The notes under the pieces are model-generated. The model ran no database searches. It saw only the letters and a list, made by a program, of their open reading frames with translations, and had not been told where the DNA came from. A stretch of DNA of 24,554 nucleotides from positions 64,001-88,554 of the IMG/VR virus record IMGVR_UViG_3300032116_000094, one strand, 5' to 3'. This document shows, piece by piece, positions 356 through 24,554 of the stretch. The translations under genes and the position numbers were made by a program. Source of the DNA: a virus. Position 1 is the first letter of the stretch, and each line of letters starts with the position of its first letter.

Positions 356-381
356 CAATTAATTATTTATATATAAATAGT

Positions 382-1187: not shown

Positions 1188-1188
1188 A

Positions 1189-5494: not shown

Positions 5495-5503
5495 ATCGTT
5501 CTG

Positions 5504-5511: not shown

Positions 5512-5529
5512 ATATTTTTTTTTTGATAA

Positions 5530-7866
5530 TTAAATTAATTCACTAATATTTTCAGATTTTTTAATCTGGCAGATATTGTCTGCCCAATTGTCTATCATTG
5601 GGTTATGCGAGATAACAAATATTTTTTCAAAATATTCTCTAATCTTGAAGAAAAAATTGCCAACTAATTCTAAATTGTCATTTGATATTTTACCAAACAC
5701 CTCATCCATTACTATAATGTTTGGTTTTGGAAGCGAACATATTTTAGACAAAACGGATCTTATGGCTAGAGATGAAATTGTCTTTTCGTATCCAGACCCG
5801 CTATTAAGCAATTTTTCAATTCCCGTAGAATTGTCTATCATGTAGAACTCAACATCATTCTTATCTGAAATCTTGATTTCAACTTTGAATGGTGCACTAT
5901 CTTTTAACAATCTTTGAAGCTCATTGTTTATTATTGGTAACATAGTTTTCATTATATACTTACTAATACCATGTTTGCCAAACAACTCTAGATATATTTT
6001 ATATATTTTTTCTTTCTCAGCTTCCTCTTCTATTTGCCGGATAAAATTGTAATTAGAGTCTATTTTATCATGATGATTTTTAATTTGCACTATTGCAAAT
6101 GTTATTTTTTCATCAAGTTTCCTTTTAGCTTGCGTAAGTTCTTCTAAACGATATTTAGCTTTCAAAAGTTTTGACTCTATCTCATTATTTTTGTTAATTT
6201 TTTCCTGGATTTCAAGGTAATCCGAAATTTTTTCTTTAGCTGAATTTATTTTTAGCTCTAAAGATTCTTTTGTTATCTCATATTTTGAATAAATTAATGA
6301 ATTTTTTTCATAAAGATCAAACTTTTCTCTTAATACAATAAGAGCTTTTTTTTCTTTTTTACATGTTTCAAGTTCAAGAACTAAAGAGTTTTTCTTCTGA
6401 TAGAGTTTTTCCAAATCCATCAATTTGTTTTTAACAAGAATGGCATTAATAATATCAATACCGCAATGTTCACACTTTATACCACCATCAACAGAGTTTT
6501 TTAACTCCTCTAACTCTGATATCTTAGAATCAATAGTTGTCAACTCAACATATATATCATTACACGCATCATTCAATTTATCGTAAACCTGTTCATCATA
6601 AAACTGATCAGGTTTAACAAGGTAAAGATTAGACATTTCTTTAATTGTATTGCTATATTGGATATTTAGTTTTTCTAACTCAGAATTTAATGTATCCAAA
6701 TTTGTTGCAGCCAAAACCGAATCAATGTCTGTGTGTTTAGAAGCCATCAACTCCTCCCTATATGATGTCCCTATTTTAATCTTTTCCTCAATTTCAGATA
6801 AAGCATTTTTGTCTATTTCTAGACATTCTTGAAATGTATCGATAAACTCTAAGTTTTTTTCAATATCCTGTTTTAGAGTTTCTTTGTTATATATATTGGA
6901 GATTAATCCCTTAGAGAATGTAGAGTATATTTCTTTGGCGATTTCTTCTTTTCTTTTTAAGAATTCTAACCCTAAAAACTTACTTAAAATTTGTCCTCTG
7001 GCTGTTGGTTTAGACTCAATCAAATCTTCTAGATTTGATCCTGTCGTAAGGATTGTCATCAAAAAGTCCTCTTGTTCTCCAATCGATGATTTTATGAATT
7101 TTTCTGTTTCACGACGTTGCTCACCTGTTAAACTTTGCAAAGATCCGTCTTTATTTTTCTTTATAAAATCTAATTCCGCTTTTACTGAATAATCCCCACT
7201 CTTGTTCTTTTTACGCTCAAGAGTCCTAATAATAAAATAATCATCGCCATCAATAGTAACCTCACCTTTAACAACTACTTTGTTTTTGTCTGTAAACTTA
7301 TTGAATATATCCTCATTTTTTGTCGTTTTAGTTGTCGTATTGAAGAATAGAAAAAGCAGAAGATCTACCGCCAGGACTGTTTTACCCCCAAAGTTAGGTG
7401 GATTCGAGGTTATAACTGTAATACCATTGTATTTGGTAAAGTCAATAACTTGATTCTCACCGAAGGACATAAAATTAGAAAATTCAATTCTTTTTAATGA
7501 CCATTTTTTAAATGCGGAGATGTCTTCATACCTAGAAATGAGTAGATCTTCTACTTGTTTATCCAATAAGTAAACGTCAGCAGCGAAATCATTGTATGAT
7601 TTAGAGTCCAAATACATATCAATTAACGACTTCTGATAATTCTTATCCATGATATTGTATGATACATCAATTGTTTGCATGGTCATCTCATCGTCCTGAC
7701 TAGAGTCCACTGTGATAACATTTATATTTGTTGTACCATACTTTTTAGAAAAGTATTGCTTAACGCTTTTTATGCGTTCTTGTGTGAAGTTATGTGGTTC
7801 ATCTTCCCAAATAACTTGTACGTTAGGTGTATATTTTTCCTCAATATCAGTTACTTCGCTGCTCAT
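5530..7866 (-). CDS. SbcC/Rad50-type recombination ATPase (T4 gp46-like)
   Basis: 778 residues. It is the ATPase subunit of the Mre11-Rad50-type complex that processes DNA ends, partnering the nuclease encoded at 8868-9647. The N-terminal head begins near residue 122 (LKRIEFSNFMSFGENQVIDF). The Walker A region is NPPNFGGKT with Lys162. Long coiled coils flank a zinc hook CEHCG (Cys465, Cys468). The C-terminal head has the signature SGSGYEKTISSLAIR (about 684-698), Walker B IIVMDEVFG (about 716-724) and the switch histidine in VISHNP (about 753). Two oddities: residues 1-120 precede the head and are absent from typical SbcC/gp46, and the first Walker A glycine is replaced by proline. T4 gp46 is much shorter (about 560). 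The start is taken at the first ATG, 9 nt after the upstream gene. Confidence 0.92.
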   Translation of the reverse strand: MSSEVTDIEEKYTPNVQVIWEDEPHNFTQERIKSVKQYFSKKYGTTNINVITVDSSQDDEMTMQTIDVSYNIMDKNYQKSLIDMYLDSKSYNDFAADVYLLDKQVEDLLISRYEDISAFKKWSLKRIEFSNFMSFGENQVIDFTKYNGITVITSNPPNFGGKTVLAVDLLLFLFFNTTTKTTKNEDIFNKFTDKNKVVVKGEVTIDGDDYFIIRTLERKKNKSGDYSVKAELDFIKKNKDGSLQSLTGEQRRETEKFIKSSIGEQEDFLMTILTTGSNLEDLIESKPTARGQILSKFLGLEFLKRKEEIAKEIYSTFSKGLISNIYNKETLKQDIEKNLEFIDTFQECLEIDKNALSEIEEKIKIGTSYREELMASKHTDIDSVLAATNLDTLNSELEKLNIQYSNTIKEMSNLYLVKPDQFYDEQVYDKLNDACNDIYVELTTIDSKISELEELKNSVDGGIKCEHCGIDIINAILVKNKLMDLEKLYQKKNSLVLELETCKKEKKALIVLREKFDLYEKNSLIYSKYEITKESLELKINSAKEKISDYLEIQEKINKNNEIESKLLKAKYRLEELTQAKRKLDEKITFAIVQIKNHHDKIDSNYNFIRQIEEEAEKEKIYKIYLELFGKHGISKYIMKTMLPIINNELQRLLKDSAPFKVEIKISDKNDVEFYMIDNSTGIEKLLNSGSGYEKTISSLAIRSVLSKICSLPKPNIIVMDEVFGKISNDNLELVGNFFFKIREYFEKIFVISHNPMIDNWADNICQIKKSENISELI

Positions 7867-7875
7867 TTTTCTTAA

Positions 7876-8082
7876 TTAAAGGTTTTGCTGGACGTTTATT
7901 TGGGGTGAGGGTTGTTCCTCAACTTCTGAAGTTAGCTCTGTTTCAGCCGAGGCTTTATTCTTTTCAATTGACTCTAGAAGAGTTTTAAATGCCTTACGCT
8001 GCCGATTAATATCCTCTGAAATTCTTTGGTTCCTACTTTGAACACGTTGTTTGTGACCTTTTCTGTTTTTTGATTTTGCCAT
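7876..8082 (-). CDS. Small basic protein, unknown function
   Basis: 68 residues. The first 25 are strongly basic (MAKSKNRKGHKQRVQSRNQR), the middle is helical, and the C-terminus is acidic and Gln/Pro-rich. A basic head like this suggests contact with nucleic acid or with the ATPase encoded just downstream. Nothing else is recognisable. The leader reads AAAAAAAACTAAAACT directly before ATG, with no Shine-Dalgarno. Confidence 0.6.
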   Translation of the reverse strand: MAKSKNRKGHKQRVQSRNQRISEDINRQRKAFKTLLESIEKNKASAETELTSEVEEQPSPQINVQQNL

Positions 8083-8096
8083 AGTTTTAGTTTTTT

Positions 8097-8465
8097 TTAT
8101 TTTTTATTTTCTTCGAACCATTCGATTACACTGTTTAATGCCCAAACGCTTCCTGAGGCGAATAAGCCATCAACAAAGACGACAAGGCTTTCTTTCAGTA
8201 TAGAATCGATTCCACTACCAAAATGTCTGTATTCATCAATATAAGAAATATATGGTGAGAACAATACGAATGATAAGAAGAACCCAACCCATGTTGATGT
8301 ACACATAACACAGCTTAGTAGCTGAAGCACAAAGGTACTAATATTTGATATAACAGGTATCCTATTTTCCCTTAAAAAGTTTTTAAATCCATTAAAAATG
8401 GAACCGTATACCAAAATGTTTGTACAACCGTATGCGATAAAAATCCAAATAAGTAATTTAATCAT
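8097..8465 (-). CDS. Integral membrane protein, unknown function
   Basis: 122 residues with hydrophobic segments at about 3-22, 43-68 and possibly 88-110. The central segment carries CVMCTSTWVGFFLSF (about 52-66), with a C-x2-C pair at the membrane entry. This pattern recalls small phage and bacterial membrane proteins with a C..C...WVG core (DUF1360-like), but I would not assign the family. It overlaps the upstream coiled-coil gene by 4 nt and lies between the gp47- and gp46-like genes, an odd location for a membrane protein. Confidence 0.6.
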   Translation of the reverse strand: MIKLLIWIFIAYGCTNILVYGSIFNGFKNFLRENRIPVISNISTFVLQLLSCVMCTSTWVGFFLSFVLFSPYISYIDEYRHFGSGIDSILKESLVVFVDGLFASGSVWALNSVIEWFEENKK

Positions 8466-11708: not shown

Positions 11709-12311
11709 TTAACTCCAAATGCCTTCCTTTTTTAGGAACCCTAACGCACAACAATACGCATCAGTACTATCGAAATTTTCTTTTTTCAACGTATTATTTT
11801 TAGTAAATAACCATTGAATTTGCGGTTCACGTTTAGAGACTAATTCCCATATTACCATTTTTTTATCAACATCCTTTGGATACCCACCAAACAAGACATT
11901 TTTACCCTTATCATTTTTCTGTAAAAGTTCAGGAAAGGCATTTTTCCTGGATTCATATGTTGTGATAAAATCAGGAACAATACCTAATACTTCATAAACC
12001 TCTCTAAATATTAGAGTGTTAAACCTAAGTAGCGTACCTATTGTATATGCATTATTAGAGTTCAATAACGGCTCTTCAATAACAACATGTGTGATATTTA
12101 AACTAGAATACGCTTCTAACTTTGATCTAAACATATTAGATTTTAATATTAGTTCTTCCAGTTTATTTCCAACTTCAGGTTTTGGCCTGGGGGATACATG
12201 CGTTAATTCTAATAATTCTTTAGTCGCAATATCAAATAATGCGATCCCAATAGTTTTAGTTGAAACGTCCAATCCTAGAATTTTTGGGTTATTTACAATA
12301 GTTTCACTCAT
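11709..12311 (-). CDS. RuvC-like Holliday-junction resolvase
   Basis: 200 residues with the RNase H-fold plan of RuvC. The first strand ILGLDVSTKTIGIALFD carries catalytic Asp15. THVVIEEPLL (72-81) supplies Glu77 or Glu78. The C-terminal helix has FDSTDAYCCALGFL with Asp179 and Asp182. It would cut branched recombination intermediates before packaging, the job done by endonuclease VII (gp49) in T4. It is the first gene of the replication/recombination block, after a 51-nt gap from the virion genes that holds no recognisable terminator. No Shine-Dalgarno precedes its ATG. RuvC-like enzymes of this type are common in marine phages. Confidence 0.85.
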   Translation of the reverse strand: MSETIVNNPKILGLDVSTKTIGIALFDIATKELLELTHVSPRPKPEVGNKLEELILKSNMFRSKLEAYSSLNITHVVIEEPLLNSNNAYTIGTLLRFNTLIFREVYEVLGIVPDFITTYESRKNAFPELLQKNDKGKNVLFGGYPKDVDKKMVIWELVSKREPQIQWLFTKNNTLKKENFDSTDAYCCALGFLKKEGIWS

Positions 12312-12362
12312 ATAATAAATTATTGATACAATAATAGTTAAATATGTTGTAATTGTGAATTA

Positions 12363-14570
12363 TTAAAAATCCAATCTTACTGCAAATTGCTGAGTACCTT
12401 GCCTTTGTATAGGTGACTGCAACTTTGTTATTACAACCAAATCTTTATCGACATCAAACAAACCAACTTCAGTTATAAAACTATTTGTTCCTGGAACCCA
12501 TGTTGGGTTAGTTGTGTTTGTAAATTGTGTTGAAACTAAATTACATAAAAACCTCATTTCATAAATAGTTGCCTCAATATCTGTCTCGATATTTCCATAA
12601 AAAAAATACTCCTCACCAAAATTCAAAAGATCTTCTTGCCCTGATGGTTCTGGTAAAGGTAAATAATCTGCTAAATCATATGTATCGGCATTATTATACA
12701 TATCGTAGCTAATAATGAATGTATTTGATGTCATAGCAGAAGGCGAAATTGCTCCATTGCAAGTATCACCGCTCACCCTATAAGTAAAATCAATTTTTTT
12801 CCAAGCTCCAGGCGAAGGTTGTGTTGTAGAACCAGAAACCAACTGAGCTAATACCATAAATTCATTCGCATTAAATCCACTAAAACAAGTGCAACCAGAA
12901 TTCATAAAAGGAAATTCCTCACCAAATTTAATAGCAACGTTTTGCCTGTCTTGATTACACTCATCACTAGGACCTTGCACTTTAGAATAATAATTACAAT
13001 GCAATGAGTCAGTAAATCCAAATGTTGAATTAAATCTATACGTAATATACATGTACTCTTGGTTATTACCTATAACACCAAAGTCATCAACGTCAGCATC
13101 ACACAAATTGGGGGCAACCAAAGACAAAGATGGTGCAGGTAATGTCCAGTTTCTATTTGATTTATACGATAAGGCTGCTACGATTTCGTCATCGTCAAAC
13201 ACAATAGTTTTTATATCAGGAAATACTTTTCCTACTCTATTTGGTGTACCTAAGTTATTTACATGTGTATCCCACAAATGATAGTATCTTAGCCCTGGAT
13301 TATTCATATCATTATCCACAGCAGATTTCATATATTTGACTTGGAATAATCCCTGAACCCCAACATCCGGATCAACATAAAAAGTCTCCCCCATTTGACC
13401 GGTAGATGACTTATGCCACATTAGCCAAGGTATTGAAACTTTAAAGTTTCTAGCAAAACCAGTCGTCTCTAAACTTTGCGGATCGAATGGTCTTAACGCA
13501 AATTTTTCACCATAAAAACTATCAATAGCATTGTTTGTATAATGAACTATAGCAATAGCCTTTTGCTCATTAGGATTTTGATAAACAGGTTTTTGATATG
13601 AATTAAAATAATAAGTATCTGTTGTTTCAGCAGTTAATGCAGGTGAAACCCAAAATGTTTGACCGCTTAGTTCTTGATAGCCAAAATATTCTTTACTACC
13701 AAGATATGTTCGTGAATTATATTTTGTGAAATCTTCATTCAAAGTAGAAACCACACCTGCCGGACTTACTGACCAAGGAATATTCATATTCCAAATTTTA
13801 ACATCGGTGTTACCTAAATCACAAATAGATTCAAAGTTAATAACATCAGGTGGCCAGTATCCTTCAGGCGTATTGTAATCATATAACTCAGTCATACCTG
13901 AAGGGTATATTAATACTCTAGCCGTTCCACAACAACCCGACTCAGAATAATTAGGTATATTCCTATCCAAAGTTAGTGTATTACCTGATACTGATTGTAT
14001 TTTATAAGTTAAAATTGGAAAGTTTGCAGTTAACCCACTATTACATGAACCAACCCCATCATAATAAATCGTAGCAAAATGACCGGAAAATGTTACTCCT
14101 GTTGTTGTAGAACAAAAATCGTCTGTTAATGTTATAGTATTACCACTATTTGAACAAAGGTCCAAAATGTAATTAGAACTAATAGTGTATGCTGAAGAAG
14201 TTTTTGCCGTCCATGAATTAGCCGAACCACTAAAAAAGCCTCTTGGTGCTGCTGTGTTGAATACCGAATAAATTTGTGAGTCCTCAAACGCTAAACCATA
14301 TGTATTGCCAGATGAACCAGATACATAATATGGATATTTTATATGCATTTTATTTGTCTCTGGATTCTGACTAGAATTTTGAGCATTATATGCGGCCTCT
14401 ATTATATTATTGTTTGTTTGATTATAACCTGGTATCTGATTATATAGCACTTCACTATCCCCAATTTGGAAATAACGAATATCTAGTTTACCTTTAGATA
14501 GCTTTAATCTACCGGTATCTGTAAACCTTGTATTTAATAGACCTGATGTATTTTTTATTATATATGCCAT
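12363..14570 (-). CDS. Large virion protein, probable tail-fibre or baseplate component
   Basis: 735 residues, beta-rich, with no signal or membrane segment. The N-terminus (AYIIKNTSGLLNTRFTDTGR, then a KLDIRYFQIGDSEV segment) resembles the start of baseplate/tail-attached proteins I recall from phages with Bacteroidetes hosts. The C-terminus (NSFITEVGLFDVDKDLVVI ... LQSPIQRQGTQQFAVRLDF) resembles the particle-attachment pattern 'ITEVGL.D..G.L..I.K....I' of phage tail-fibre proteins. Between them are many Ser/Thr/Gly-rich strands and about 15 cysteines, for example SGCCGT and SGCTCFSG. It is the last of the five leftward virion genes. Exact position in the virion is not determined; a receptor-binding or connector role is plausible. 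Confidence 0.65.
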   Translation of the reverse strand: MAYIIKNTSGLLNTRFTDTGRLKLSKGKLDIRYFQIGDSEVLYNQIPGYNQTNNNIIEAAYNAQNSSQNPETNKMHIKYPYYVSGSSGNTYGLAFEDSQIYSVFNTAAPRGFFSGSANSWTAKTSSAYTISSNYILDLCSNSGNTITLTDDFCSTTTGVTFSGHFATIYYDGVGSCNSGLTANFPILTYKIQSVSGNTLTLDRNIPNYSESGCCGTARVLIYPSGMTELYDYNTPEGYWPPDVINFESICDLGNTDVKIWNMNIPWSVSPAGVVSTLNEDFTKYNSRTYLGSKEYFGYQELSGQTFWVSPALTAETTDTYYFNSYQKPVYQNPNEQKAIAIVHYTNNAIDSFYGEKFALRPFDPQSLETTGFARNFKVSIPWLMWHKSSTGQMGETFYVDPDVGVQGLFQVKYMKSAVDNDMNNPGLRYYHLWDTHVNNLGTPNRVGKVFPDIKTIVFDDDEIVAALSYKSNRNWTLPAPSLSLVAPNLCDADVDDFGVIGNNQEYMYITYRFNSTFGFTDSLHCNYYSKVQGPSDECNQDRQNVAIKFGEEFPFMNSGCTCFSGFNANEFMVLAQLVSGSTTQPSPGAWKKIDFTYRVSGDTCNGAISPSAMTSNTFIISYDMYNNADTYDLADYLPLPEPSGQEDLLNFGEEYFFYGNIETDIEATIYEMRFLCNLVSTQFTNTTNPTWVPGTNSFITEVGLFDVDKDLVVITKLQSPIQRQGTQQFAVRLDF

Positions 14571-14600: not shown

Positions 14601-15977
14601 TTAGCCACTAGGTGGGTTATTAGGGTCTTGCTGCGGTATTTGTTGAGGTATTTGCGTGGTACTCTCAATTATTGTTGTTGGTTGAATTATAACACAATCA
14701 TTATCCACCGTAATATTTGACAAATAAGCATTTATCCCAACCGTACCTCTTGTATAACATAATGGATCGAATGTGAAGCCAGGATCAATATCTATTGTAT
14801 ATTCAATGTAACCAACAATATTTGATGTGTTATTACCTGTTATGGCTGTAGCAGAATATATATCATATGCAGCATATACATCATGTATCGGATTACATTG
14901 TGACGTAGATATATTGATGAATGGCCCACTATCTATTATTGACATTGTTTTTTGAATATTATTCACACTAATACTATGCCCTGTTGTTATAAAACTAACT
15001 GTTCCAGGCTCAGAATAGGTTTTAGTGTATGTTACAACATAATCAAACTCAATATTAACACCTACAGGCAATAATGATGTATCAATAGTAAAGTCGATTT
15101 TGTATTTTGTTAAGTCATTTATAGTTGTACCAACTCTATCCGGGCCAGCAGTAACAACCATCGGTAATTCATAAGTTTTTGGTTGAGATGGTGATAGTGT
15201 AACGTCACAACTAGTTGTATTACCTGATGAATCTTTAGCATAGACTGTATATGCCCCAGAAAATAACCCATTAAATATCCCAACATTAATAAAATTAACA
15301 TTATCTAAAGAATATTGCCAAGGAGGATTACCACCAGTTGCCACCGAAGTTATTGACCCATCATTTTCGTTTACACATGATGGACTATTAAAATTACACT
15401 TTATACTATATGTCTTATCTGCACTTTGACATTGACCCTCTGTTGATTTACAACTAAAAAATTGAGCGTTATTACCAAAGACAAACCATCCTGTCAATGG
15501 GGTATCTTTCGGGTCTGAGCTTCGTATAATTAAGCTAGGATAATCAGGTATTGGGTCTAGCTCCCAATATTGATTTATAAAATTCCATCTGGCATAATAG
15601 TTTATCAGATTTATTGTCGTAAAATACTCAGGTTTACCATTATAAGAGTTGCCGTTATAACAAAATGTATATCTTTTAAGCGTATTTGTTCTTGAATTTG
15701 TAATTGATAAACAAAAACAAGGATATGTTTTAATTGGATCTGAAATGTTTATTGTATTATACAAGCCACATAAATTGTTATATAATAATATTTTTTTACT
15801 TGTATCTGGGACTACAACTAAAACCCCTGTTATTAACTCCGAAAAAGTTAATCCTGTAGCAAATTCTGTTGTTAAATATTTAGTAGCCAAACTACTAGAT
15901 GATATATTATCATAATACACCGAAAAAGTTCCGTCAGGAGTTCCTGCTGTTATTGTTATATTAAATATCCTATTCAT
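14601..15977 (-). CDS. Virion surface protein with SprB-like module
   Basis: 458 residues from ATG 15977, which follows the upstream stop by one base (TAATATG). The frame stays open to 16097, but that part is the shadow frame of the neighbouring Thr-Pro repeat (QHQHQH-type) and is left out. The N-terminus (MNRIFNITITAGTPDGTFSV) starts a beta-rich domain. Residues about 192-268 match the SprB repeat of Bacteroidetes surface adhesins: CVNENDGSITSVATGG, PPWQYSLDN, FNGLFSGAYTVYAKDSSGN. The rest is beta-rich, and the C-terminus is a Gln/Pro-rich tail (about 440-458). It is probably a tail-appendage protein; host-surface binding is an inference from the module type. Confidence 0.65.
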   Translation of the reverse strand: MNRIFNITITAGTPDGTFSVYYDNISSSSLATKYLTTEFATGLTFSELITGVLVVVPDTSKKILLYNNLCGLYNTINISDPIKTYPCFCLSITNSRTNTLKRYTFCYNGNSYNGKPEYFTTINLINYYARWNFINQYWELDPIPDYPSLIIRSSDPKDTPLTGWFVFGNNAQFFSCKSTEGQCQSADKTYSIKCNFNSPSCVNENDGSITSVATGGNPPWQYSLDNVNFINVGIFNGLFSGAYTVYAKDSSGNTTSCDVTLSPSQPKTYELPMVVTAGPDRVGTTINDLTKYKIDFTIDTSLLPVGVNIEFDYVVTYTKTYSEPGTVSFITTGHSISVNNIQKTMSIIDSGPFINISTSQCNPIHDVYAAYDIYSATAITGNNTSNIVGYIEYTIDIDPGFTFDPLCYTRGTVGINAYLSNITVDNDCVIIQPTTIIESTTQIPQQIPQQDPNNPPSG

Positions 15978-15978
15978 A

Positions 15979-16893
15979 TTATGGTGTCGGAGTTGGCGTA
16001 GGTGTTGGTGTTGATGTCGGAGTAGGACTAACTGTAGGTGTTGGTGTTGATGTTGGTGTCGGGCTAGGAGATATTGTTGGTATTGAACAAGTGCCAATAT
16101 TTAAAACAGACCCCAAAGAATTTGTTTGTATCCAATAAATACCGTTTGAATAATACCCTTCAACTACAGGCATTGTTAATTCATAATCATAATAAATGAT
16201 ATCCCCACTTTGCATTTCAAATATTTGTGAAACTGTTGACCAGTATTCTTTTGTTTCACCAGAACATGATGACAAGATAGTTGTTCCGCTACCTAATAAC
16301 AAATAGTTAAGTTCACTAACAGAGCCAGAAAAAATACAATCTAATGGTTCTATTAATTCGCAGCTAACGGTTGTTATAAAGTCATAATATTTATCAGTAA
16401 TTGTGGCATTATATGTACCTGCACTCAAGTTATATATTGTTGTACCAGTAGCTGTGGTATTATTAGGTAATGACCATACAACATAATATGGTGCTGTACC
16501 CCCAGTTATTGCTAAAGATAATATTCCACTATTAGGACTATTAACGTCAGGATTTATTGCAATACACTGAGCACCTAATGGAAATAATGTTATTGGTTCA
16601 CATTCGTTATATGAAACCCCTGGTATCGGAGGTGGAGGTAATGGCGTTGGCTCTGGCCCTGGACATGGCAAGCATCCTGAATATGAACATGTCATACCAG
16701 ATCCAGCATCAACCAAAGGTATATCATCATTTAGAATGGTAAAATATACCTTAATATCTGGCTCTTCAATAACTTTGTAACAAAAATTAATTGGCTTGCT
16801 GATTAATAAATTACCAACAGTGTATTTTGTTCCTGATTTTATTTTATATATTTGATTATCACAGCATCCTGTAACATAGCTACTTAAATTCAT
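15979..16893 (-). CDS. Cys-rich virion protein with SprB-like module and Thr-Pro C-terminal tail
   Basis: 304 residues from ATG 16893, 5 nt after the upstream stop; an earlier ATG at 16929 would overlap that gene. The N-terminal part is Cys-rich (TGCCDNQ, SYSGCLPCPGPEP). A Pro-rich linker (about 80-90) is followed by a SprB-like module (about 105-185: NSGILSLAITGGTAPYYVVW, TIYNLSAGTYNATITD), a further beta domain, and from about 272 to the end an uninterrupted Thr-Pro/Ser-Pro repeat. A linker-type repeat at the extreme C-terminus is odd because such repeats normally join two domains. The next gene begins one base after the stop and itself has a SprB-like module, so the two may derive from one longer protein. 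Confidence 0.65.
   Translation of the reverse strand: MNLSSYVTGCCDNQIYKIKSGTKYTVGNLLISKPINFCYKVIEEPDIKVYFTILNDDIPLVDAGSGMTCSYSGCLPCPGPEPTPLPPPPIPGVSYNECEPITLFPLGAQCIAINPDVNSPNSGILSLAITGGTAPYYVVWSLPNNTTATGTTIYNLSAGTYNATITDKYYDFITTVSCELIEPLDCIFSGSVSELNYLLLGSGTTILSSCSGETKEYWSTVSQIFEMQSGDIIYYDYELTMPVVEGYYSNGIYWIQTNSLGSVLNIGTCSIPTISPSPTPTSTPTPTVSPTPTSTPTPTPTPTP
15982..16080 (-). repeat. Thr-Pro coding repeat at a gene end
   Basis: A degenerate 6-bp repeat (ACTCCA-like on the minus strand) codes for about 30 residues of alternating Thr/Ser-Pro at the end of the 15979-16893 gene. The unit length is a multiple of three, so unit gain or loss would keep the frame. It reads in the second frame as a His-Gln-rich open stretch, which creates a false upstream extension for the next gene. 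Confidence 0.8.
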
Positions 16894-16898
16894 ATAAT

Positions 16899-17117
16899 TT
16901 ATATTACAATTAAAGATTTTATCACACAATTATTCCCATCTAATACCCGGATACCAACTTCACTTAAATTATTGTATGGTTCTGGAACTAAAAAAGAATA
17001 TGGTATGTCAGCATCATTTATTGTTGTAACGTATGCACACATGTTATATGTATTGTCACAAATATATACTGTGTATGGTTGTGTTCCGATTAAGTCTGTA
17101 ATAGTTATCTCTTTCAT
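16899..17117 (-). CDS. Small beta-rich virion-cluster protein
   Basis: 72 residues. It contains one probable beta-sandwich-like unit: ITITDLIGTQPYTVYICDNT, then a hydrophobic Pro-containing segment (IPYSFLVPEPYNNLSE), then VGIRVLDGNNCVIKSLIVI. Units of this form, with TxPYxVYICD and a later DxNxCxI segment, occur as repeats in large virion proteins of phages with Bacteroidetes hosts, so this may be a stand-alone copy of a domain used in its neighbours. Gaps are 6 nt to the upstream gene and 5 nt to the downstream one. Function is unknown; a small fibre or decoration protein is plausible. Confidence 0.6.
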   Translation of the reverse strand: MKEITITDLIGTQPYTVYICDNTYNMCAYVTTINDADIPYSFLVPEPYNNLSEVGIRVLDGNNCVIKSLIVI

Positions 17118-17123
17118 ATTATT

Positions 17124-18914
17124 TTAACTTACACATGTTCCCCAAACTATTGTCACAACAGTAGATCCTATTAATATTGTTGACCCACTAGACGGTATGG
17201 ATGTTCCATTTATTTTTACATTATATAATGTGTATCTAATCGGAGTGCCTCCTCCTCCTGAATTCCAATAACCTGTTTTAGTGTCTGGAGTTAAAGATAC
17301 TATCCCAGAATTACCAGTGTTAAATGTTACTAGACTGCTCAGATTATTATATTGAGCACCAGCAACACCTGATGTACAACCTATATCATCATAACCATCA
17401 CCAAAAACTGTTGAAACTGTTAAGTTACCTGTTATAGGTGTATTTAGTTCCGCAACAAATATTGGGAACGATGAACTAGATATATTGTCCATTGTTAAAT
17501 ATAATGTTGGGATAACGTCTGTCGGTGTTGGTGTTGGTGTTGAAGTCGGTGTATTCGTAGGAGTGCTTGTTGGTGCCGGAGCAGGTGTCGAAGTTGGGCC
17601 TGTTGCCGTTGGAGATAATGTAGGTGTTGGTGATATCGTGCTTGTTGGTGTTATTGTCGGTGTAGGTGTTGGCGTTGGAGTTATTGAACAGTTATCACAA
17701 CCTGGACCTAAAACCCATATTATGTCATTGAGGATAGCATTTGACGAATTACTTGATAATGACTCGTATGTTACACATTTTGAAACGCCATTTATTACAC
17801 AATTAAATGTAACTCCAGTCTCAATTGATAATCCTGAAAATACCAATGAGTCAACAACATAGTATGTGTCTCCTGATATACAATCAACTAGTTTTTTTGT
17901 TTTAGTATCTGTAAATGTATCATCAACTAAAGTATATGTTACATCACCACTAAAGCAAACGCTATAACCCGTTATTGGTGTTGCCGTAGGTGTCGCACTA
18001 GGTGTTGGTGTAGGTAATGTTGTAGCACTTAAAGAAATACTAGATAACGAACAATCAGATGTCGGCGTTGGTGTCGGTGTTGGTGTTGGAGTAGATGTCG
18101 GTGTAGGGCTTATTGTTGCTGTTGGTGTTGGTGTTATTATCTCACAATTAAAATACGCATTAAAATCAAAATCGTCGCATATTGCAGGTGTTGGCGTTGG
18201 TGTTACAACACAAACTCCTTCTGTTAATTCAGATAATGAAATGTCTGGGCAATTTTCGTAACAAGGAACTTTACCAAATAAAAAACAATCTCCACCCAAA
18301 CTATCAGATAAACACCATTTATACCCTGTATTATATAAATACCCTATTTGATCTGTACCCCCAGTATAATACGCATATCCATTATAGTTACCAACTTTAT
18401 TATAGGTCCCATCATTATCAAAATAATTATTAGTATCTAAGCAATATTGGTTAATCGGACATTCAGGCCCTATATACGTAGGTGTCGGTGTTGGTGATGG
18501 TGTAGGTGTAGGCGTTTGTGTTGGTGTAGGTGTAGGGCATGTTATGCAGCCTTCACAACTAACTTGCTGGACAAATATACCTGTTGTCCCATCATATACT
18601 GTTCCTCCACCTAAATTATCTATATAGGTGCAACCAGTATATCCTGAAACAGTAACGTGATAAAAGTTAGAAACTAATTGTGCCGGAATACCACTAACTG
18701 TAAATGTTATGCCACTATCACAACAATCCGTAAAATTGTATTGATAACTAGCACAGGCTGGACTACAACTCATGTCAGTTAATGTTATTCCAGAATATGA
18801 GTAATCGTCATTTAAACAAATTGGTGTACCAATAGTAGATCCGCTTTGGAAATAACCGCAACAATCTGTATATTGCCAGGAGCTAGAATTAGTTACACCA
18901 GATAGACAAGCCAT
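17124..18914 (-). CDS. Modular Cys-rich virion protein with five Thr-Pro linkers
   Basis: 596 residues. Cys-rich beta modules alternate with Thr-Pro/Ser-Pro linkers at about 125-147, 237-245, 256-285, 299-315 and 409-467. The N-terminal 120 residues contain two related units, each with a [YF]TDCC segment (QYTDCC near 14, NFTDCC near 60), and end in CEGCITC. A middle module (about 148-235) is Tyr/Gly/Cys-rich. The C-terminal domain (about 468-596) is Ser/Gly-rich beta structure (NSGIVSLTPDT, GSTILIGSTVVTIVW). The design, many small domains on extended rigid linkers, fits a fibre or decoration protein on the virion surface. It is the first gene of the leftward virion block, divergent from the glycosyltransferase genes. 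It could be a substrate of those enzymes, but that is a hypothesis. Confidence 0.65.
   Translation of the reverse strand: MACLSGVTNSSSWQYTDCCGYFQSGSTIGTPICLNDDYSYSGITLTDMSCSPACASYQYNFTDCCDSGITFTVSGIPAQLVSNFYHVTVSGYTGCTYIDNLGGGTVYDGTTGIFVQQVSCEGCITCPTPTPTQTPTPTPSPTPTPTYIGPECPINQYCLDTNNYFDNDGTYNKVGNYNGYAYYTGGTDQIGYLYNTGYKWCLSDSLGGDCFLFGKVPCYENCPDISLSELTEGVCVVTPTPTPAICDDFDFNAYFNCEIITPTPTATISPTPTSTPTPTPTPTPTSDCSLSSISLSATTLPTPTPSATPTATPITGYSVCFSGDVTYTLVDDTFTDTKTKKLVDCISGDTYYVVDSLVFSGLSIETGVTFNCVINGVSKCVTYESLSSNSSNAILNDIIWVLGPGCDNCSITPTPTPTPTITPTSTISPTPTLSPTATGPTSTPAPAPTSTPTNTPTSTPTPTPTDVIPTLYLTMDNISSSSFPIFVAELNTPITGNLTVSTVFGDGYDDIGCTSGVAGAQYNNLSSLVTFNTGNSGIVSLTPDTKTGYWNSGGGGTPIRYTLYNVKINGTSIPSSGSTILIGSTVVTIVWGTCVS
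17515..18540 (-). repeat. Set of Thr-Pro linker repeats within one gene
   Basis: Five blocks of degenerate 6-bp repeat (GGTGTT-like on the plus strand) lie at about 18478-18540, 18184-18207, 18061-18150, 17970-18020 and 17515-17690. Each codes for alternating Thr and Pro with Ser, Ala or Ile substitutions. The longest spans about 58 residues. Synonymous variation between units shows they are not a very recent expansion. Confidence 0.8.
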
Positions 18915-19030: not shown

Positions 19031-19972
19031 ATGAAAAAAGTATTCCTAGATTTATCCGAAGCAAAAGGCTTAGGTGATACGCTATCAGCAACCCCTGTTA
19101 TTAGGAAATTAAAAGAATCATATGGTTCCAAAATATATGTCATAACGAATTATCCTGAGTTATTCCATAATAACAGAAATGTTGAAAAAGCTTATTATGT
19201 AAATGCAATTAATATAGAAAATGTAAAATCAACACAGATATATCATTCATCATTCAATAATGTTGGTAAGAAAAATGAGTTTGGTGTTGAATTTAAAAGT
19301 AATGTATGTGATATAAGACAATATCATGCTATGACGCTTGGCTTTCAATTATCTGAAGATGATTTGTATACAGAATATGAACCCGATGAATATATACCAA
19401 TTGATGGACTACCAGAAAAATTCGTTTTAATCCATCCCGCAGAAAATTGGCCCTCAAGAACCTGGGATAAAGACAAATGGGCCGATCTTGTTAATTTATT
19501 ATGCGGAAATAATATAAATGTTGTTATTACAGGTAAAAACACCGAGGAATATGGATTTTTTCACATTACAAAAAAAATATTTAGCATAAAACAAGACTTG
19601 GTTTTAGATTTATCAAACAAAAGTAATATATCGCAAACCTGGCACTTAATTGATAAATCTTCTTGTTTTGTAACAATGGATTCAGGACTGCTGCATTTAG
19701 CAGGAACAACAGATGCCGAAATAATTCAACTCGGAAGCTCCATAAATAACGAATTTAGAGCCCCATATAGATATATGTCACAAGATTACAAATACCATTA
19801 TATCTCAGGTCCTTGTGGAATATTTTGTGCTTCAGACATGAAATATGGTGTTAGAGAATGGGGTACAATACATGGTGTTCCCCCATTAATTGGCTGCTTA
19901 GAAAATAAACCTGAATTTGAATGCCACCCATCGGTAATTGATGTTTACGAAACAATTATGAAAATCATATGA
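19031..19972 (+). CDS. GT9-family glycosyltransferase (heptosyltransferase-like)
   Basis: 313 residues with the GT-B fold markers of family 9 (ADP-heptose:LPS heptosyltransferases). The N-terminal glycine loop and helix is GLGDTLSATPVIRKLKESYG (13-32). The start of the second Rossmann domain is VLIHPAENWPSRTWDKDKW. The donor-site motif is TMDSGLLHLAGTT (Asp217). The C-terminus has four cysteines (262, 266, 289, 298), the last in FECHPS, closely matching FECHKS in the next gene; this suggests a shared metal-binding finger like that of TibC-type enzymes. The donor sugar and acceptor are not predictable. It is the first gene of the only plus-strand operon here, and its stop overlaps the next start (ATGA). 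Confidence 0.87.
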   Translation: MKKVFLDLSEAKGLGDTLSATPVIRKLKESYGSKIYVITNYPELFHNNRNVEKAYYVNAINIENVKSTQIYHSSFNNVGKKNEFGVEFKSNVCDIRQYHAMTLGFQLSEDDLYTEYEPDEYIPIDGLPEKFVLIHPAENWPSRTWDKDKWADLVNLLCGNNINVVITGKNTEEYGFFHITKKIFSIKQDLVLDLSNKSNISQTWHLIDKSSCFVTMDSGLLHLAGTTDAEIIQLGSSINNEFRAPYRYMSQDYKYHYISGPCGIFCASDMKYGVREWGTIHGVPPLIGCLENKPEFECHPSVIDVYETIMKII

Positions 19973-22900
19973 ATAATAAACTTAAATTTGATAAAGCGTA
20001 TATTTTGTATGCAACCGAAAATTATTTTCCAGTAATAGAATGTACTATAACTAGTATTAGGAAGTTCTCTAAATTACCGATAATAGTTTATTCTATAAAT
20101 AAAAAATTTGAAACATCTAATAATGACGTATATTGTGAAGTAATGTATAATATACATTTAAGGCATAAAAATAATGATGATTTATACATTAAAGGATTGG
20201 ATGAATCTAATTTTTATATTAAAAGAGAAAACCCTCACATATATTCAATATTAATCCAAAAACCATTTATAACAATACATGCCTTAGAAAATTATGCTAA
20301 AACAGTATTCTTTATTGATGCCGACTCAGTTATATTCAACAATATTGACATTTTTTTTGATTTATATCCAGAAAATGAAAATATTCCTTATTTTACCAAA
20401 GGCATTTATGATTTTTTAGCATATAACGAAATTGGTCATGAAGACGGTTTAGAAAATACCGTTGAACACAAATTATGCGAATTATTGAATATTGATCAAT
20501 CATTTAGGCTAAATACAAGTTATAGGCAATCTGGTTATTATATATCAGGCCAGAAGAGTATACCATTTTTAAATGAATGGTATATTACTTGCGGAATGGA
20601 TATAATATTTAGGAACCATGCAATTTATGCCCCTTATAACGAAGAAACCGTATTAAACTGCTTATTATGGAAATATAAAATAGATAAGGGTTTGCCTTTA
20701 ATATATGTTAACGGATCGTTAGATAGAATTGATATTATCAATGATAACAAAAATTATTTAGGTATTGAAAACGAAATACAAGAATGGTTTAAACTACCTC
20801 CCCAGAAAAATTCTGTGTATTTTATACATGGTGAAAAAAGACCAAATATTATTATGGATATGATAAATAAAATTGATGAAATAAAAAACCGAGATAGCGG
20901 AAAAAAAACAAATATATTGTATTTAGCCCCTCATTTATCAACAGGTGGTATGCCAGCTTTTCTACTAAAAAGAATTGAGGCCATAAAAAAATACTATAAT
21001 GACGAATTTAATATTTTTGTTGTTGAATATACAAATTATGGCGATGCATTTTCAGTGCAAAAAGATATGATAAAAACTATGATCGATTCTGATAAGTTTT
21101 ATTCCTTAGGATATTTAGGTGAACCTATTGATAATAAATACAAGTTATTGGATATTATTAAATATAATAATATAGACGTAGTACATATTGATGAACCAAT
21201 TGAAGGCTTTGACTCATTTAATCCTGTGCCAAGAGATTTAATTAACCTACTATATTCTGAGGACAGATCTTGGAATATTGTCGAAACATGCCATAATGTT
21301 GTATTTAATCCTAAACAATCAAAAGAATTTCATCCTGACGCATATGCTTTATGCTCAAAATATCATAAAAATGTAACTTTTGCTGATGAAAAAGAAATTT
21401 TAGAGTTAATTGAATATCCGATTGAAAATTTCAAAAAAACAAAAGCTGAAAAATTAAAAGCGCAATTAAGTTTAAATTTAGATCCTGAAGTAAGACACGT
21501 ATTAAATGTCGGTATTTGGACACCAGGTAAAAATCAAAAAGAATTCGTAGAAATTGCAAAATTGTTTGAAAACAATAACAATTTACATTTTCATGCTATT
21601 GGTTCCTTAGCACCTAATTTTGAAGACTATTGGGGCCCAATTGTTGAAAATTTACCTAAGAACATAACTGTATGGGGTGAAAGAAATGACGTTCATGCAT
21701 TTATGGCAGCTTCTGATGTTTTAATATTTAACTCAACATTTGAGTGTAACCCAATAACTCTAAAAGAAGCTATATCTTTTGGATTGAAAATATTAGCAAG
21801 AGATCTAAATGTTTATTTAGACACATACTCACAATATATTATACCAATAGATGATAATATTTTAGACACAAAAAATAAATTAGAAAAAATTGTAAATTCA
21901 AAATTATTTTCATATACAGCAACTAATGAACAGAATTCTTTTGCGGAAAAACATGTTAATTTATATCTAAATTTAAAAAACAAAGAATCCAAATATAAAT
22001 TAGATATAGCTCAATCATTTGTTGGTCAACCTTATTTTGAAATAAAAGGAAAGGATAATAACACATATCACGTAGAATTTATTGATGAAAATAACACACT
22101 TGTTTATTCTGAAAATATCACCACAAATACTTGGATAAGACTTAACCGAAAATATTATACAAAATGGAAAACTAATGTATCTATTGATGATAAAATTATA
22201 TATTCAAAAACATTATCATTAAAAAATGAAAGAGTTTATATCGCATTCGATAGTAACTCGTTAGGCGATACAATTGCTTGGATGCCATATTGCTTAGAAT
22301 TTAAGAAAAAACACAATTGTTATTTGATTGTATCAACATTTTGGAATAAATTATTTGTTGATGTTTACCCTGAAATTGAGTTCGTAACTCCTGGTGATAT
22401 TGTTTATGACTTATACGCGATGTATAACATAGGATATTATTATGATAATAATAGTGCCCCAGAAAACCCTCAAATAATACCCTTGCAAAAGGTGGCAACA
22501 AACATTTTAGGATTAAATTACCATGAAATTTCTCCAAGGATTAAATTTAATCCGGGGAAAAGACCTATTGAATCTAGATACGTTACCATAGCAACAGATT
22601 CTACAGCCCAACTAAAATATTGGAATTATCCTAGAGGTTGGGAAATACTTTGTGAGTATCTTCAAAATTGCGGATATAAAGTTATCTCTGTCTCAAAAGA
22701 AGCGTCTAAAATTAATGGGGTTATAAACTTATCCGATACATCAATAGAAAATACTATGAATGTGATTCATCATAGTGAGTTTTTAATCGGTTTATCTAGC
22801 GGTCTATCATGGCTTGCTTGGGCATTAGATAAACATGTTGTTATGATCGCTAATTTCACGGATGAGGACCAAGAATTTAAATCAAATTGTACTAGAATTA

Positions 22901-23079
22901 TTAATAAATCAGTATGTAACAGTTGTTGGAATAACCCATTATTTAAATTCGACAAATCAGATTGGAACTGGTGTCCAGAACATAAAAATACTCCTAGGCA
23001 ATTTGAATGCCATAAATCTATAACGCCAGATATGGTGTTTCAAAGAATAAAAAAAGACATATTTAAGTATGAAAATTGA
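19969..23079 (+). CDS. Three-module glycosyltransferase (GT-A + GT4-like + TibC-like GT9)
   Basis: 1036 residues with no signal or membrane segment. Module 1 (about 1-300) is a GT-A-type transferase, with KAYILYATENYFPVIECTI at the start and a metal-binding DAD at 117-119 (VFFIDADSVIF). Module 2 (about 310-650) is a GT-B enzyme of GT4 type: LSTGGMPAFLLKR (323-335), LNVGIWTPGKNQKEF, and the EX7E motif Glu592/Glu600 in FECNPITLKEA. A small beta segment (about 665-750, with YHVEFIDENN and WIRLNRKYYTKW) leads into module 3, a GT9 enzyme beginning SLGDTIAW (about 764-771). Module 3 ends with Cys983, Cys986, Cys1002 and Cys1014 (CNSCW, NWCPEH, FECHKS), like the iron finger of autotransporter O-heptosyltransferases (TibC/Aah). 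That family glycosylates Ser/Thr of proteins in the cytoplasm. Three enzymes in one chain suggest stepwise building of a glycan, probably on protein; this is inferred. Confidence 0.88.
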   Translation: MNNKLKFDKAYILYATENYFPVIECTITSIRKFSKLPIIVYSINKKFETSNNDVYCEVMYNIHLRHKNNDDLYIKGLDESNFYIKRENPHIYSILIQKPFITIHALENYAKTVFFIDADSVIFNNIDIFFDLYPENENIPYFTKGIYDFLAYNEIGHEDGLENTVEHKLCELLNIDQSFRLNTSYRQSGYYISGQKSIPFLNEWYITCGMDIIFRNHAIYAPYNEETVLNCLLWKYKIDKGLPLIYVNGSLDRIDIINDNKNYLGIENEIQEWFKLPPQKNSVYFIHGEKRPNIIMDMINKIDEIKNRDSGKKTNILYLAPHLSTGGMPAFLLKRIEAIKKYYNDEFNIFVVEYTNYGDAFSVQKDMIKTMIDSDKFYSLGYLGEPIDNKYKLLDIIKYNNIDVVHIDEPIEGFDSFNPVPRDLINLLYSEDRSWNIVETCHNVVFNPKQSKEFHPDAYALCSKYHKNVTFADEKEILELIEYPIENFKKTKAEKLKAQLSLNLDPEVRHVLNVGIWTPGKNQKEFVEIAKLFENNNNLHFHAIGSLAPNFEDYWGPIVENLPKNITVWGERNDVHAFMAASDVLIFNSTFECNPITLKEAISFGLKILARDLNVYLDTYSQYIIPIDDNILDTKNKLEKIVNSKLFSYTATNEQNSFAEKHVNLYLNLKNKESKYKLDIAQSFVGQPYFEIKGKDNNTYHVEFIDENNTLVYSENITTNTWIRLNRKYYTKWKTNVSIDDKIIYSKTLSLKNERVYIAFDSNSLGDTIAWMPYCLEFKKKHNCYLIVSTFWNKLFVDVYPEIEFVTPGDIVYDLYAMYNIGYYYDNNSAPENPQIIPLQKVATNILGLNYHEISPRIKFNPGKRPIESRYVTIATDSTAQLKYWNYPRGWEILCEYLQNCGYKVISVSKEASKINGVINLSDTSIENTMNVIHHSEFLIGLSSGLSWLAWALDKHVVMIANFTDEDQEFKSNCTRIINKSVCNSCWNNPLFKFDKSDWNWCPEHKNTPRQFECHKSITPDMVFQRIKKDIFKYEN

Positions 23080-23434
23080 GGTATCAATTGGAGAAATTGT
23101 AGATAAGTTATCTATTTTACAAATAAAAAAAGAAAATATATCCGATGTTAATAAATTGTATAACGTAAATAATGAATTTAGTTATTTACATGATATTGTA
23201 TTCAATGAGCTTAAAATCAGTGATGACGATTATTATAATCTTTTAATTATTAATAAAAGCTTGTGGGATATTGAAGATCATATACGAAAAAAAGAAATCG
23301 ATAAATCATTCGATGATGAGTTTATCGATTTAGCTAGAAAAGTTTATATTACAAACGACAAAAGATCCGTTATAAAAAAAGAAATAAATATAAAATATAA
23401 CTCATTATTTGTTGAAGAAAAATCTTACAAATAA
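23069..23434 (+). CDS. DUF6165 family protein
   Basis: 121 residues, all helical. It matches the family layout from end to end: MKIEVSIGEIVDKLSILQIK at the N-terminus, LWDIEDHIR in the middle, then FIDLARKVYITNDKRSVIKKEIN and the ending FVEEKSY. Members are found beside glycosyltransferases and polysaccharide genes in bacteria and phages, but their biochemical role is not known to me. Here the gene overlaps the large glycosyltransferase by 11 nt, so it is translated from the same message, and it is the last gene before a strong terminator. A helper or scaffold for the transferases is the simplest guess. Confidence 0.8.
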   Translation: MKIEVSIGEIVDKLSILQIKKENISDVNKLYNVNNEFSYLHDIVFNELKISDDDYYNLLIINKSLWDIEDHIRKKEIDKSFDDEFIDLARKVYITNDKRSVIKKEINIKYNSLFVEEKSYK

Positions 23435-23472
23435 AAAAAAATGTGGCAGAATTAACTGCCACATTTTTTTTA
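23433..23472. terminator. Bidirectional intrinsic terminator between convergent genes
   Basis: A perfect 9-bp GC-containing stem (ATGTGGCAG at 23441-23449, CTGCCACAT at 23456-23464) with a 6-nt loop is flanked by a run of eight A on the left and nine T on the right. A/T pairing extends the stem further. It can therefore terminate the plus-strand glycosyltransferase operon and the minus-strand fibre gene alike, each gene ending within a few bases of it. Confidence 0.92.
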
Positions 23473-24554
23473 TGATAATATAGTGAAAACTAATTGTGGA
23501 TGGAAATATAATGTATATTCACTTAAAGCTACGCCAATTATCTGTACTACGTCATCTTTGGCTGATGGCGGTGTTGTAGTTATATTTCCTGCTGTAGTAC
23601 TTAAATACCAAATAGTATTAGGACCACCATATGCTCCAACACCTGAAGACACTTTTGTTACAAACCCGTGCATCAAAAAGTTTCCTGCTGCACCACTACT
23701 TAAGCTTGTTTCAAGACATAAAGCTATTGCAGGAGCTGTAGAGCCCGTATCTGCGTCAGCTTTTTTAAATTGACCAAGTGTTGCGTCAATATATACAACA
23801 TCACCAAACGCTAATGATTCACCAGCAGTAAATCTGGTTATCATACCCCAACCCGCAGAGCCTGTTGTTCCTGTTGAAATTGGGTATATTGAGGTTATAC
23901 CTGTAAGTGCTGGTGATGTTCCCGAAGTGCCAGATGTTCCACTCGAACCTGATGATCCGCTTGAGCCAGAAGACCCTGATGAACCACTTGAACCTGAAGA
24001 GCCAGAAGATCCTGATGTACCAGAAGATCCCGACCTACCGGATGTACCTGATGTTCCACTCGAACCTGATGATCCGCTTGAGCCAGAAGACCCTGATGAA
24101 CCACTTGAACCTGAAGAGCCAGAAGATCCTGATGTACCAGAAGATCCTGACCTACCGGATGTGCCTGATGTACCACTCGAACCTGATGATCCGCTTGAGC
24201 CAGAAGACCCTGATGAACCACTTGAACCTGAAGAGCCAGAAGATCCTGATGTACCAGAAGATCCTGACCTACCGGATGTGCCAGAAGTACCAGAAGAGCC
24301 TGACGAACCGCTCGAACCAGATGAGCCAGAAGAGCCTGATGACCCGCTTGAACCACTCGAACCAGATGAGCCAGATGTACCAGAAGAGCCTGATGACCCG
24401 CTTGAACCACTCGAACCAGATGAGCCAGATGTGCCAGAAGAGCCTGATGACCCGCTTGAACCGCTCGAACCAGATGAGCCAGATGTACCAGAAGAGCCAG
24501 ATGATCCTGACGAACCGCTCGAACCAGATGAGCCAGATGTACCAGAAGAGCCTG
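23470..24554 (-). CDS. Collagen-like fibre protein (N-terminus off the right edge)
   Basis: The minus-strand frame ending at 23470 is open to the window's right end, giving at least 361 residues with the N-terminus missing. The ATG at 23844 is internal and not the start. From about 23925 rightward the product is almost entirely Gly-X-Y triplets with X and Y Ser or Thr (GSS, GTS), a collagen-like pattern without proline. Then comes a short junction (TGITSIYPISTGTTGSAGWG) and a C-terminal domain of about 125 residues: ITRFTAGESLAFGDVVYIDA, AIALCLETSLSSGAAGNFL, NTIWYLSTTAGNI, VVQIIGVALSE. This terminal domain is commonly found behind collagen-like stalks in phage fibre and capsid-associated proteins and likely trimerises. 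Dense Ser/Thr makes the stalk a possible O-glycosylation substrate; that is a hypothesis. Confidence 0.82.
   Translation of the reverse strand, partial: GSSGTSGSSGSSGSSGSSGSSGTSGSSGSSGSSGSSGSSGTSGSSGSSGSSGSSGSSGTSGSSGSSGSSGSSGSSGSSGSSGSSGSSGTSGTSGRSGSSGTSGSSGSSGSSGSSGSSGSSGSSGSSGTSGTSGRSGSSGTSGSSGSSGSSGSSGSSGSSGSSGSSGTSGTSGRSGSSGTSGSSGSSGSSGSSGSSGSSGSSGSSGTSGTSGTSPALTGITSIYPISTGTTGSAGWGMITRFTAGESLAFGDVVYIDATLGQFKKADADTGSTAPAIALCLETSLSSGAAGNFLMHGFVTKVSSGVGAYGGPNTIWYLSTTAGNITTTPPSAKDDVVQIIGVALSEYTLYFHPQLVFTILS
23933..24283 (-). repeat. Three tandem 117-bp copies in the collagen-like stalk
   Basis: Units begin at 23933, 24050 and 24167, each 117 bp (39 codons, 13 Gly-X-Y triplets), and differ at only a few bases (for example GATGTTCC versus GATGTACC). 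The near identity at the DNA level shows recent duplication, on top of the basic 9-bp triplet repeat. Confidence 0.85.
24326..24554 (-). repeat. 54-bp tandem repeats in the collagen-like stalk
   Basis: A different higher-order unit starts at 24326, 24380, 24434, 24488 and 24542 (the last cut by the window edge), each 54 bp or 18 codons, with a few substitutions between copies. It likely continues beyond the window. The two unit lengths point to independent expansions in one stalk. Confidence 0.8.

Follow-up and report, generated by a model that had tools for sequence, protein, structure and literature searches.

Phage-encoded glycosyltransferases raise the question of which molecule they act on, and the stretch analyzed here (the window) raises it directly. 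Its 24,554 nucleotides, bases 64001-88554 of the 88,554-base virus record IMGVR_UViG_3300032116_000094, itself a fragment, carry a plus-strand glycosyltransferase operon convergent with a minus-strand open reading frame (ORF) for a collagen-like fibre, across an intergenic gap of 35 bases. The operon comprises three overlapping ORFs (19031-19972, 19969-23079 and 23069-23434, with overlaps of 4 and 11 bases), encoding in order a stand-alone GT9 enzyme (GT9a), a 1036-amino-acid (aa) chain with GT-A-like, GT4 and TibC-type GT9 modules, and a DUF6165 protein. Judging from sequence and at a probability of roughly 0.7, the operon serves to build an O-linked glycan on the collagen-like fibre of the phage itself, ahead of virion assembly: such enzymes and Ser/Thr collagen genes co-occur in numerous phages and in some bacteria, so that the phage probably coats this fibre with sugar. 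A first-pass annotation of this DNA had already described the operon, and its ORFs and the family matches of its stand-alone GT9, GT4, TibC-type GT9 and DUF6165 parts bear that description out. The features are:

19031-19972, plus strand: stand-alone GT9 glycosyltransferase, 313 aa (PF01075, 55 bits)
19969-20898, plus strand: GT-A-like module of the 1036-aa chain, about aa 1-310 (invariant DxD motif, α/β model)
20905-21987, plus strand: GT4 module, about aa 313-673 (PF00534/PF13692; MshA superposition)
21997-23076, plus strand: predicted TibC-type O-glycosyltransferase module, aa 677-1036 (TIGR04414, TibC superposition, residues)
23069-23434, plus strand: DUF6165 protein (PF19662, 32.8 bits, cut-off 27)
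23434-23471, no strand: stem of 16 pairs flanked by runs of A and of T (pattern match)
23470-24552, minus strand: C-terminal part of the collagen-like fibre, proposed acceptor, 360 aa in the window (PF01391, 107.8 bits)
17124-18914, minus strand: Thr-Pro-rich protein, candidate further acceptor (Pro-Thr-Ser tracts; PHROG match of unknown function)

The TibC-type module and its collagen-like neighbour

The C-terminal module of the chain belongs to the family of TibC and Aah: aa 698-1029 match TIGR04414 (hepto_Aah_TibC) with 307.2 bits against the NCBI curated cut-off of 200, the module matches the TibC structure 4rap in sequence (E = 1.3e-54), and its structural model superposes on TibC with a Z-score of 36.7 and a root-mean-square deviation of 2.3 over 353 aligned residues. 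The model of the whole chain, built from 17 sequences, has a mean predicted local distance difference test score (pLDDT) of 80 and a predicted template modelling score of 0.44. The key residues of TibC were taken from PMC4358343, placed on the module via the TibC sequence alignment, and counted over 67 modules below 90% identity, comprising that of the window and 66 found in phage loci. TibC residues Asp110, Thr226, Lys230 and Trp305 are kept in the window module as D767, T879, K883 and W948, and recur in 67, 62 (Ser in the other 5), 66 and 66 of the modules, respectively. The four cysteines of the iron finger are also kept (C983, C986, C1002 and C1014), each being present in 66/67 modules. 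Arg286, which contacts adenine in TibC, is absent from the window module, where Thr929 takes its place; across the set this column contains Arg in 10/67 modules and Thr in 42. The Pro300 column is occupied by Ser (49), Gly (14), Ala (2), Pro (1) and Asn (1), and Aah also has Ser at this position, according to the excerpted text of PMC4358343. Moreover, the β-hairpin thumb is missing from the window module: the corresponding loop has 17 residues, 10 fewer than in TibC. The same length of 17 occurs in 44/67 modules, and a length of 27 in 59/85 cellular modules. As the same excerpt describes the TibC dodecamer as built by the thumb together with the iron finger, a ring is not expected for the window enzyme.

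The neighbouring minus-strand ORF, whose 5' end lies beyond the record, is the Gly-Ser/Thr collagen-like fibre that the first-pass annotation had placed from 23470 on. Its collagen part contains 71 Gly-X-Y triplets that are proline-free and whose X and Y positions are 98% Ser/Thr, with Ser 52, Thr 16 and Arg 3 at X, and Ser in 71/71 at Y. Collagen triple helices usually depend on proline. The S74 domain (PF13884), a chaperone typical of tail spikes and fibres, is not found at the C-terminus of the window fibre; among ten fibre ends tested, six are positive, those six having been chosen for look-alike ends, and the other four, including that of the window, are negative.

Company of enzyme and collagen genes in phages

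A pattern scan of IMG/VR returned 167 stretches, 163 of which encode a relative of the enzyme; the best 80 of the 163 loci were used, forming 45 clusters at 90%. A strict scan of the fetched flanks detected Gly-X-Y collagen in 53/80 loci and a Pro-Thr-Ser tract in 24/80. Within the 30 clusters that have at least 5 kb on both sides, a Ser/Thr collagen lies downstream in 23, upstream in 4 and on either side in 25, every downstream one (23/23) being convergent with the enzyme; collagen is found only downstream in 21 clusters and only upstream in 2 (p = 6.6e-5). When the requirement is at least 4 kb downstream, 25 of 36 clusters have a downstream Ser/Thr collagen.

The same scan bears on the proposal that the main acceptors are the Thr-Pro-rich proteins encoded upstream rather than the collagen fibre. 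The window and other loci do have such ORFs in the vicinity of the enzyme; in L066 one occupies the position downstream of it and convergent with it, and in L049 one lies 59 bp upstream. Their tracts were, however, detected in far fewer loci than collagen, and the cellular short-thumb relatives described below have collagen, leaving this proposal quite improbable. In the window, the Thr-Pro tracts that the first-pass annotation had assigned to a virion block are indeed present (17124-18914 and 15979-16929), but their virion nature found no backing: the PHROG matches are of unknown function, with a Hoc-like one at E = 0.04. The suggestion of that annotation that the glycan is placed on neighbouring fibres is supported by co-occurrence for the collagen, and for the Thr-Pro block nothing beyond neighbourhood speaks for an acceptor role.

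Three side observations concern the phage enzymes themselves. In the Microcystis phage Mel-JY01 (L085, PP395634.1), the annotation misses a 1016-aa Ser/Thr collagen encoded by frame 2-3049 and names the GT4/TibC chain at 4750-8427 'methyltransferase FkbM', a label that Pfam does not back with any match at 0.01; no publication naming Mel-JY01 was among the literature matches listed. One phage record (L177, G048) contains two TibC-type genes, at 517-1704 and 12022-14124. Finally, the TibC-type frames at 85335-86378 of G172 (the record of L290) and 32575-33567 of G174 (the record of L294) contain 7 and 1 in-frame TGA codons, respectively, suggesting in the case of G172 an enzyme-bearing phage with TGA recoding.

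The company of the two genes was also sampled independently of the enzyme. Phages were found via the window's primase, and 50 records were used out of 80 loci, the others being set aside because their primase was 100% identical (3), because they repeated one phage (4) or because they were shorter than 45 kb (23). TIGR04414 is present in 5/50 of these records and collagen in 10/50 (9 over the cut-off; the enzyme-positive record G008, cut at its collagen, supplies the one below the Pfam cut-off), and collagen accompanies the enzyme in 5/5 enzyme-positive against 5/45 enzyme-negative records (p = 1.2e-4). It is convergent with the enzyme in all five enzyme-positive records. The five collagen-positive, enzyme-negative records also carry Ser/Thr-rich repeats, and three of them share the same 860-aa ORF.

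A further sample was seeded on the fibre. Records with a GTSGTSGTS-coding stretch (the GTS set; at least 120 stretches, 105 with a Gly-X-Y run on translation) were used at a length of at least 30 kb, as 41 first and 21 held-out records; L204 and L253 among the former, and L267 and L275 among the latter, were already known from the enzyme search. The control consisted of Gly-Pro-X collagen records (the GPX set; at least 120 stretches, with 72/79 loci of L298-L376 verified), of which 34 of at least 30 kb and then 14 from later loci were used, with L397 added. Ser/Thr content divides the two sets with little overlap, and GTS fibres are nearly proline-free (median fraction 0, highest 0.04). TIGR04414 occurs in 20/41 GTS records (19 over the cut-off) versus 1/34 GPX records, or in 15/33 versus 0/32 when these are limited to a length of at most 110.6 kb, and in the held-out records in 9/21 versus 0/14, or 7/19 versus 0/14 when L267 and L275 are omitted (p = 0.013). 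Pooled, the enzyme is present in 29/62 GTS versus 1/48 GPX records (p = 4.3e-8), the 49th control record (L397) being negative too. Co-occurrence with Ser/Thr-repeat fibre genes, which the first-pass annotation had named as a check on its proposal, is positive for the collagen-like fibre in the enzyme-seeded, primase-sampled, fibre-seeded and held-out sets.

GT2 glycosyltransferases, counted as a control in the first 75 records, show no bias (12/41 GTS versus 12/34 GPX), and a general richness in glycosyltransferases of fibre-carrying phages is rejected as the explanation on this ground. The same contrast, with TIGR04414 enriched alongside GTS fibres and GT2 not, argues against a second account, in which the enzymes alter host surface glycans, namely lipopolysaccharide (LPS) or O-antigen, and thereby block superinfection, the fibre being merely co-resident in a host-recognition island. 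This account has a precedent, since an excerpt of PMC7029224 interprets the glycosyltransferases of the pelagimyophage host-recognition cluster in this manner, and the GT4 and stand-alone GT9 modules belong to families that also build LPS; yet the studied TibC-type enzymes modify protein, according to the part of PMC4358343 consulted.

For collagens in records that lack the enzyme, 42 neighbouring proteins (170-900 aa, 22 loci) were scanned with Pfam, and no glycosyltransferase appeared among the 24 families recovered. As a separate observation, a 326-aa protein lies beside the Ser/Thr collagen in three enzyme-less records (L168:3397-4374, L169:911-1888 and L172:5839-6816; 79-86% identical), and Pfam returned nothing at 0.001 for the copy in L172.

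Cellular relatives, the thumb and the donor sugar

Bacterial and archaeal genomes were scanned as well, yielding 78 loci from the best 80 of at least 487 relatives, a sample hence biased to the phage type; many of these loci are contigs of metagenome-assembled genomes, and some may be phage DNA. For the counts of thumb and partner, rows at or above 85% identity and rows with too little flank were removed. Among cellular enzymes, a Ser/Thr collagen lies nearby in 15/16 with a short thumb and in 2/27 with a long thumb, and the large ORFs beside long-thumb enzymes contain TIGR04415 repeats in 6/6 tested; 8/10 bacterial collagens are over the Pfam cut-off. On a 4.5-Mb scaffold of Methylobacter luteus, a 287-aa collagen with a signal-peptide-like start is paired with a 432-aa enzyme; an mfd-like gene flanks the pair on one side and small or metabolic genes on the other (names from reading translations), and no LPS gene lies beside the pair within the 8.5 kb examined. 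This chromosomal pairing without an adjacent LPS gene further weakens the account based on host LPS, which we consider unlikely.

In a tree of 128 rows, calculated by a quick method with the thumb columns excluded, a 41-row group of long-thumb enzymes has a collagen neighbour in 0/24 rows with enough flank, and phages and bacteria are intermixed over the rest of the tree. This points to two branches within the TibC/Aah family, an autotransporter one and a collagen one, told apart mainly by the thumb. An autotransporter-type partner inside the phage is rejected, because TIGR04415 has no match in the window's own record (a fragment) or in the records of the enzyme-positive relatives (0/35). It might instead be supposed that the module acts on autotransporter-like adhesins of the host during infection, given that it belongs to TIGR04414, whose studied members modify such adhesins in the excerpt of PMC4358343. 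The loss of thumb and Arg286 and the position of the module apart from the autotransporter branch of the tree speak against this, as does the lack of TIGR04415 in the 36 phage records searched, host proteins lying outside that search, and we give the supposition almost no credence.

Glycosylation of the phage's own fibre, for its part, has to be weighed against several observations. Five of the 30 enzyme clusters have no flanking Ser/Thr collagen (L049, L016, L037, L051 and L076); L049, L051 and L076 hold other Thr-rich ORFs, and a mate of L037 has a collagen. In the fibre-seeded sample, 33/62 GTS records, which are fragments, have no enzyme match, and the repeats of enzyme-negative records are slightly richer in Ser/Thr (0.87 versus 0.82, p = 0.03), so that Ser/Thr content alone is no predictor of the enzyme. 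The nearest-match distance between enzyme and fibre is not significantly short (p = 0.07, 20 fibre-seeded records). Sixteen neighbourhoods were retrieved, 15 of them from the 20 enzyme-positive GTS records and one from the single enzyme-positive GPX record. Nine include a Ser/Thr collagen, which is convergent with the enzyme in 3 and on the same strand in 6; in the GPX case, a collagen of Gly-Pro type lies 4.6 kb from the enzyme. Taken together, co-presence is firm, and the tight convergent layout characterizes the branch to which the window belongs rather than the set as a whole. Phage rows are also looser than cellular ones with regard to the thumb, collagen being nearby in 31/42 with a short thumb and 5/9 with a long one. 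Furthermore, the tree shows essentially a single joint split of thumb and partner (2-5 independent pairs, not significant), and their association is therefore a contrast of two clades rather than many independent events.

The donor sugar belongs to the same weighing. With Thr at the Arg286 position of the window module and Arg in so few of the 67 modules, ADP-heptose as the donor is unsure. Genes resembling domain II of HldE occur in 5/35 enzyme-positive records, none over the cut-off, and none was found in the window's own record or in its near-identical record of 148,754 bases. A phage relative (L016:13387-15339) carries HldE-kinase-like, HldE-adenylyltransferase-like and HldD-like genes beside the enzyme, which match heptose families best, all below curated cut-offs. 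Naming heptose as the transferred sugar is a guess taken from the enzyme family. An FkbM methyltransferase gene and further glycosyltransferase genes in L054, together with a sulfotransferase gene in L016, hint at glycans that may be decorated.

The proposed pathway, the rest of the locus and known systems

From the genes, the fold, the conserved active-site residues, the co-occurrence and the branch structure, we infer a substrate, a sugar, an order of steps and an effect on the virion. In this scheme, glycosylation would begin in the cytoplasm, where the TibC-type module (aa 677-1036) would attach an initial sugar, probably heptose or one related to it, to Ser/Thr of the freshly translated (Gly-Ser/Thr-Ser)n chain. 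Extension of the glycan would fall to the stand-alone GT9 and to the GT4 and GT-A modules fused with the TibC-type one, and DUF6165 would serve as an accessory subunit. The enzyme would represent a branch of the TibC superfamily without the ring-forming thumb, acting on Ser/Thr collagens and not on autotransporter β-helices.

Three of the four glycosyltransferase modules counted in the first-pass annotation (GT9, GT4 and TibC-type) are recovered by profile. The GT4 domain matches at aa 503-622 of the chain, and aa 314-673 superpose on MshA with a Z-score of 26.9, that is, with a GT4 fold. The fourth has no family match: the N-terminal part of about 305 aa gave nothing in Pfam or NCBIfam, and its invariant DxD motif (D117, D119), the α/β model and one faint PDB-profile lead (E = 0.095) point weakly to a GT-A module. 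The VIA list for the chain model is occupied by the GT4 domain and barely covers this part. Across the 45 clusters, GT-A, GT4 and TibC-type modules are fused in one chain in 26, and at least GT4 and TibC-type in 34. GT9a occurs in 7/45 clusters, including the window's own, its relatives in other phage loci being 56-63% identical; tblastn of GT9a against GenBank phages gave no match, and PHROGs gave nothing useful for the two glycosyltransferase proteins. As an LPS heptosyltransferase, GT9a is rejected, since all models are below their cut-offs (best 49.1 bits versus 170.2). DUF6165 is present in 15/45 clusters, the window's included, and is fused to the enzyme chain in phages L072 and L075; it is predicted as a four-helix bundle (model pLDDT 89.9), for which Foldseek found no PDB match at E up to 0.001.

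The stem between the operon and the fibre gene is probably a bidirectional terminator ending both transcripts, as its sequence pattern indicates; the stretch scanned contains 2 terminator-like sites, where shuffling predicts 1.4. The genes surrounding the operon resemble those for a sigma factor, SbcC/SbcD, an exonuclease, a primase and a RuvC-like resolvase. Separately, positions 14604-16097 of the window contain an SprB repeat (PF13573, 30.4 bits); this domain occurs in gliding adhesins of Bacteroidota and is perhaps a hint of the host.

Compared with known systems, the window enzyme resembles TibC/Aah (BAHT, TIGR04414) in fold, catalytic Asp, phosphate and sugar contacts, iron finger and the location of its gene near a Ser-rich partner, but differs in lacking the thumb and the adenine-reading Arg and in being fused to GT4 and GT-A-like modules; the partner of TibC/Aah is a β-helix autotransporter, whereas here the neighbour is a Ser/Thr collagen. 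In Bacillus, the collagen-like surface protein BclA is O-glycosylated on Thr, by a system that differs from the phage operon in organism and enzymes. Mycobacteriophage virions are glycosylated at the C-termini of capsid and tail-tube subunits (Freeman 2023, as cited in an excerpt of PMC12619734); glycans are thus found on the phage particle there, whereas here a collagen-like fibre and a TibC-type enzyme would be involved instead. Mimivirus L230 makes and glucosylates hydroxylysine on viral collagen according to the excerpted text of PMC4691112; there, as is proposed here, a virus enzyme acts on the virus's own collagen-like protein, with hydroxylysine as the modified residue in Mimivirus and Ser/Thr as the putative one in the phage. 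By title and start of abstract, in a search that most subscription journals lay outside, no description of a TibC-type enzyme paired with a collagen fibre was found among the matches listed, and a search for heptosyltransferases with collagen-like proteins yielded nothing related by title.

A broader version of the proposal can be drawn by analogy, which we hold tentatively and think more probably wrong than right: a widespread collagen-directed TibC branch in phages and bacteria might glycosylate proline-free Gly-Ser/Thr-Ser collagens, with the sugars on Ser/Thr replacing (hydroxy)proline in holding the triple helix. The analogue is the cuticle collagen of Riftia, whose helix is stabilized by glycosylated threonine and not by hydroxyproline (cited in the part of PMC6953826 consulted). 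If glycosylation of the phage's own fibre is correct, the NCBIfam name 'autotransporter strand-loop-strand O-heptosyltransferase' would be misleading for the collagen branch. The proposal offers this class of phage glycosyltransferases, which elsewhere are interpreted as modifying host LPS or phage DNA, a specific and testable substrate, and suggests a possible route by which collagens without proline may be stabilized or shielded.

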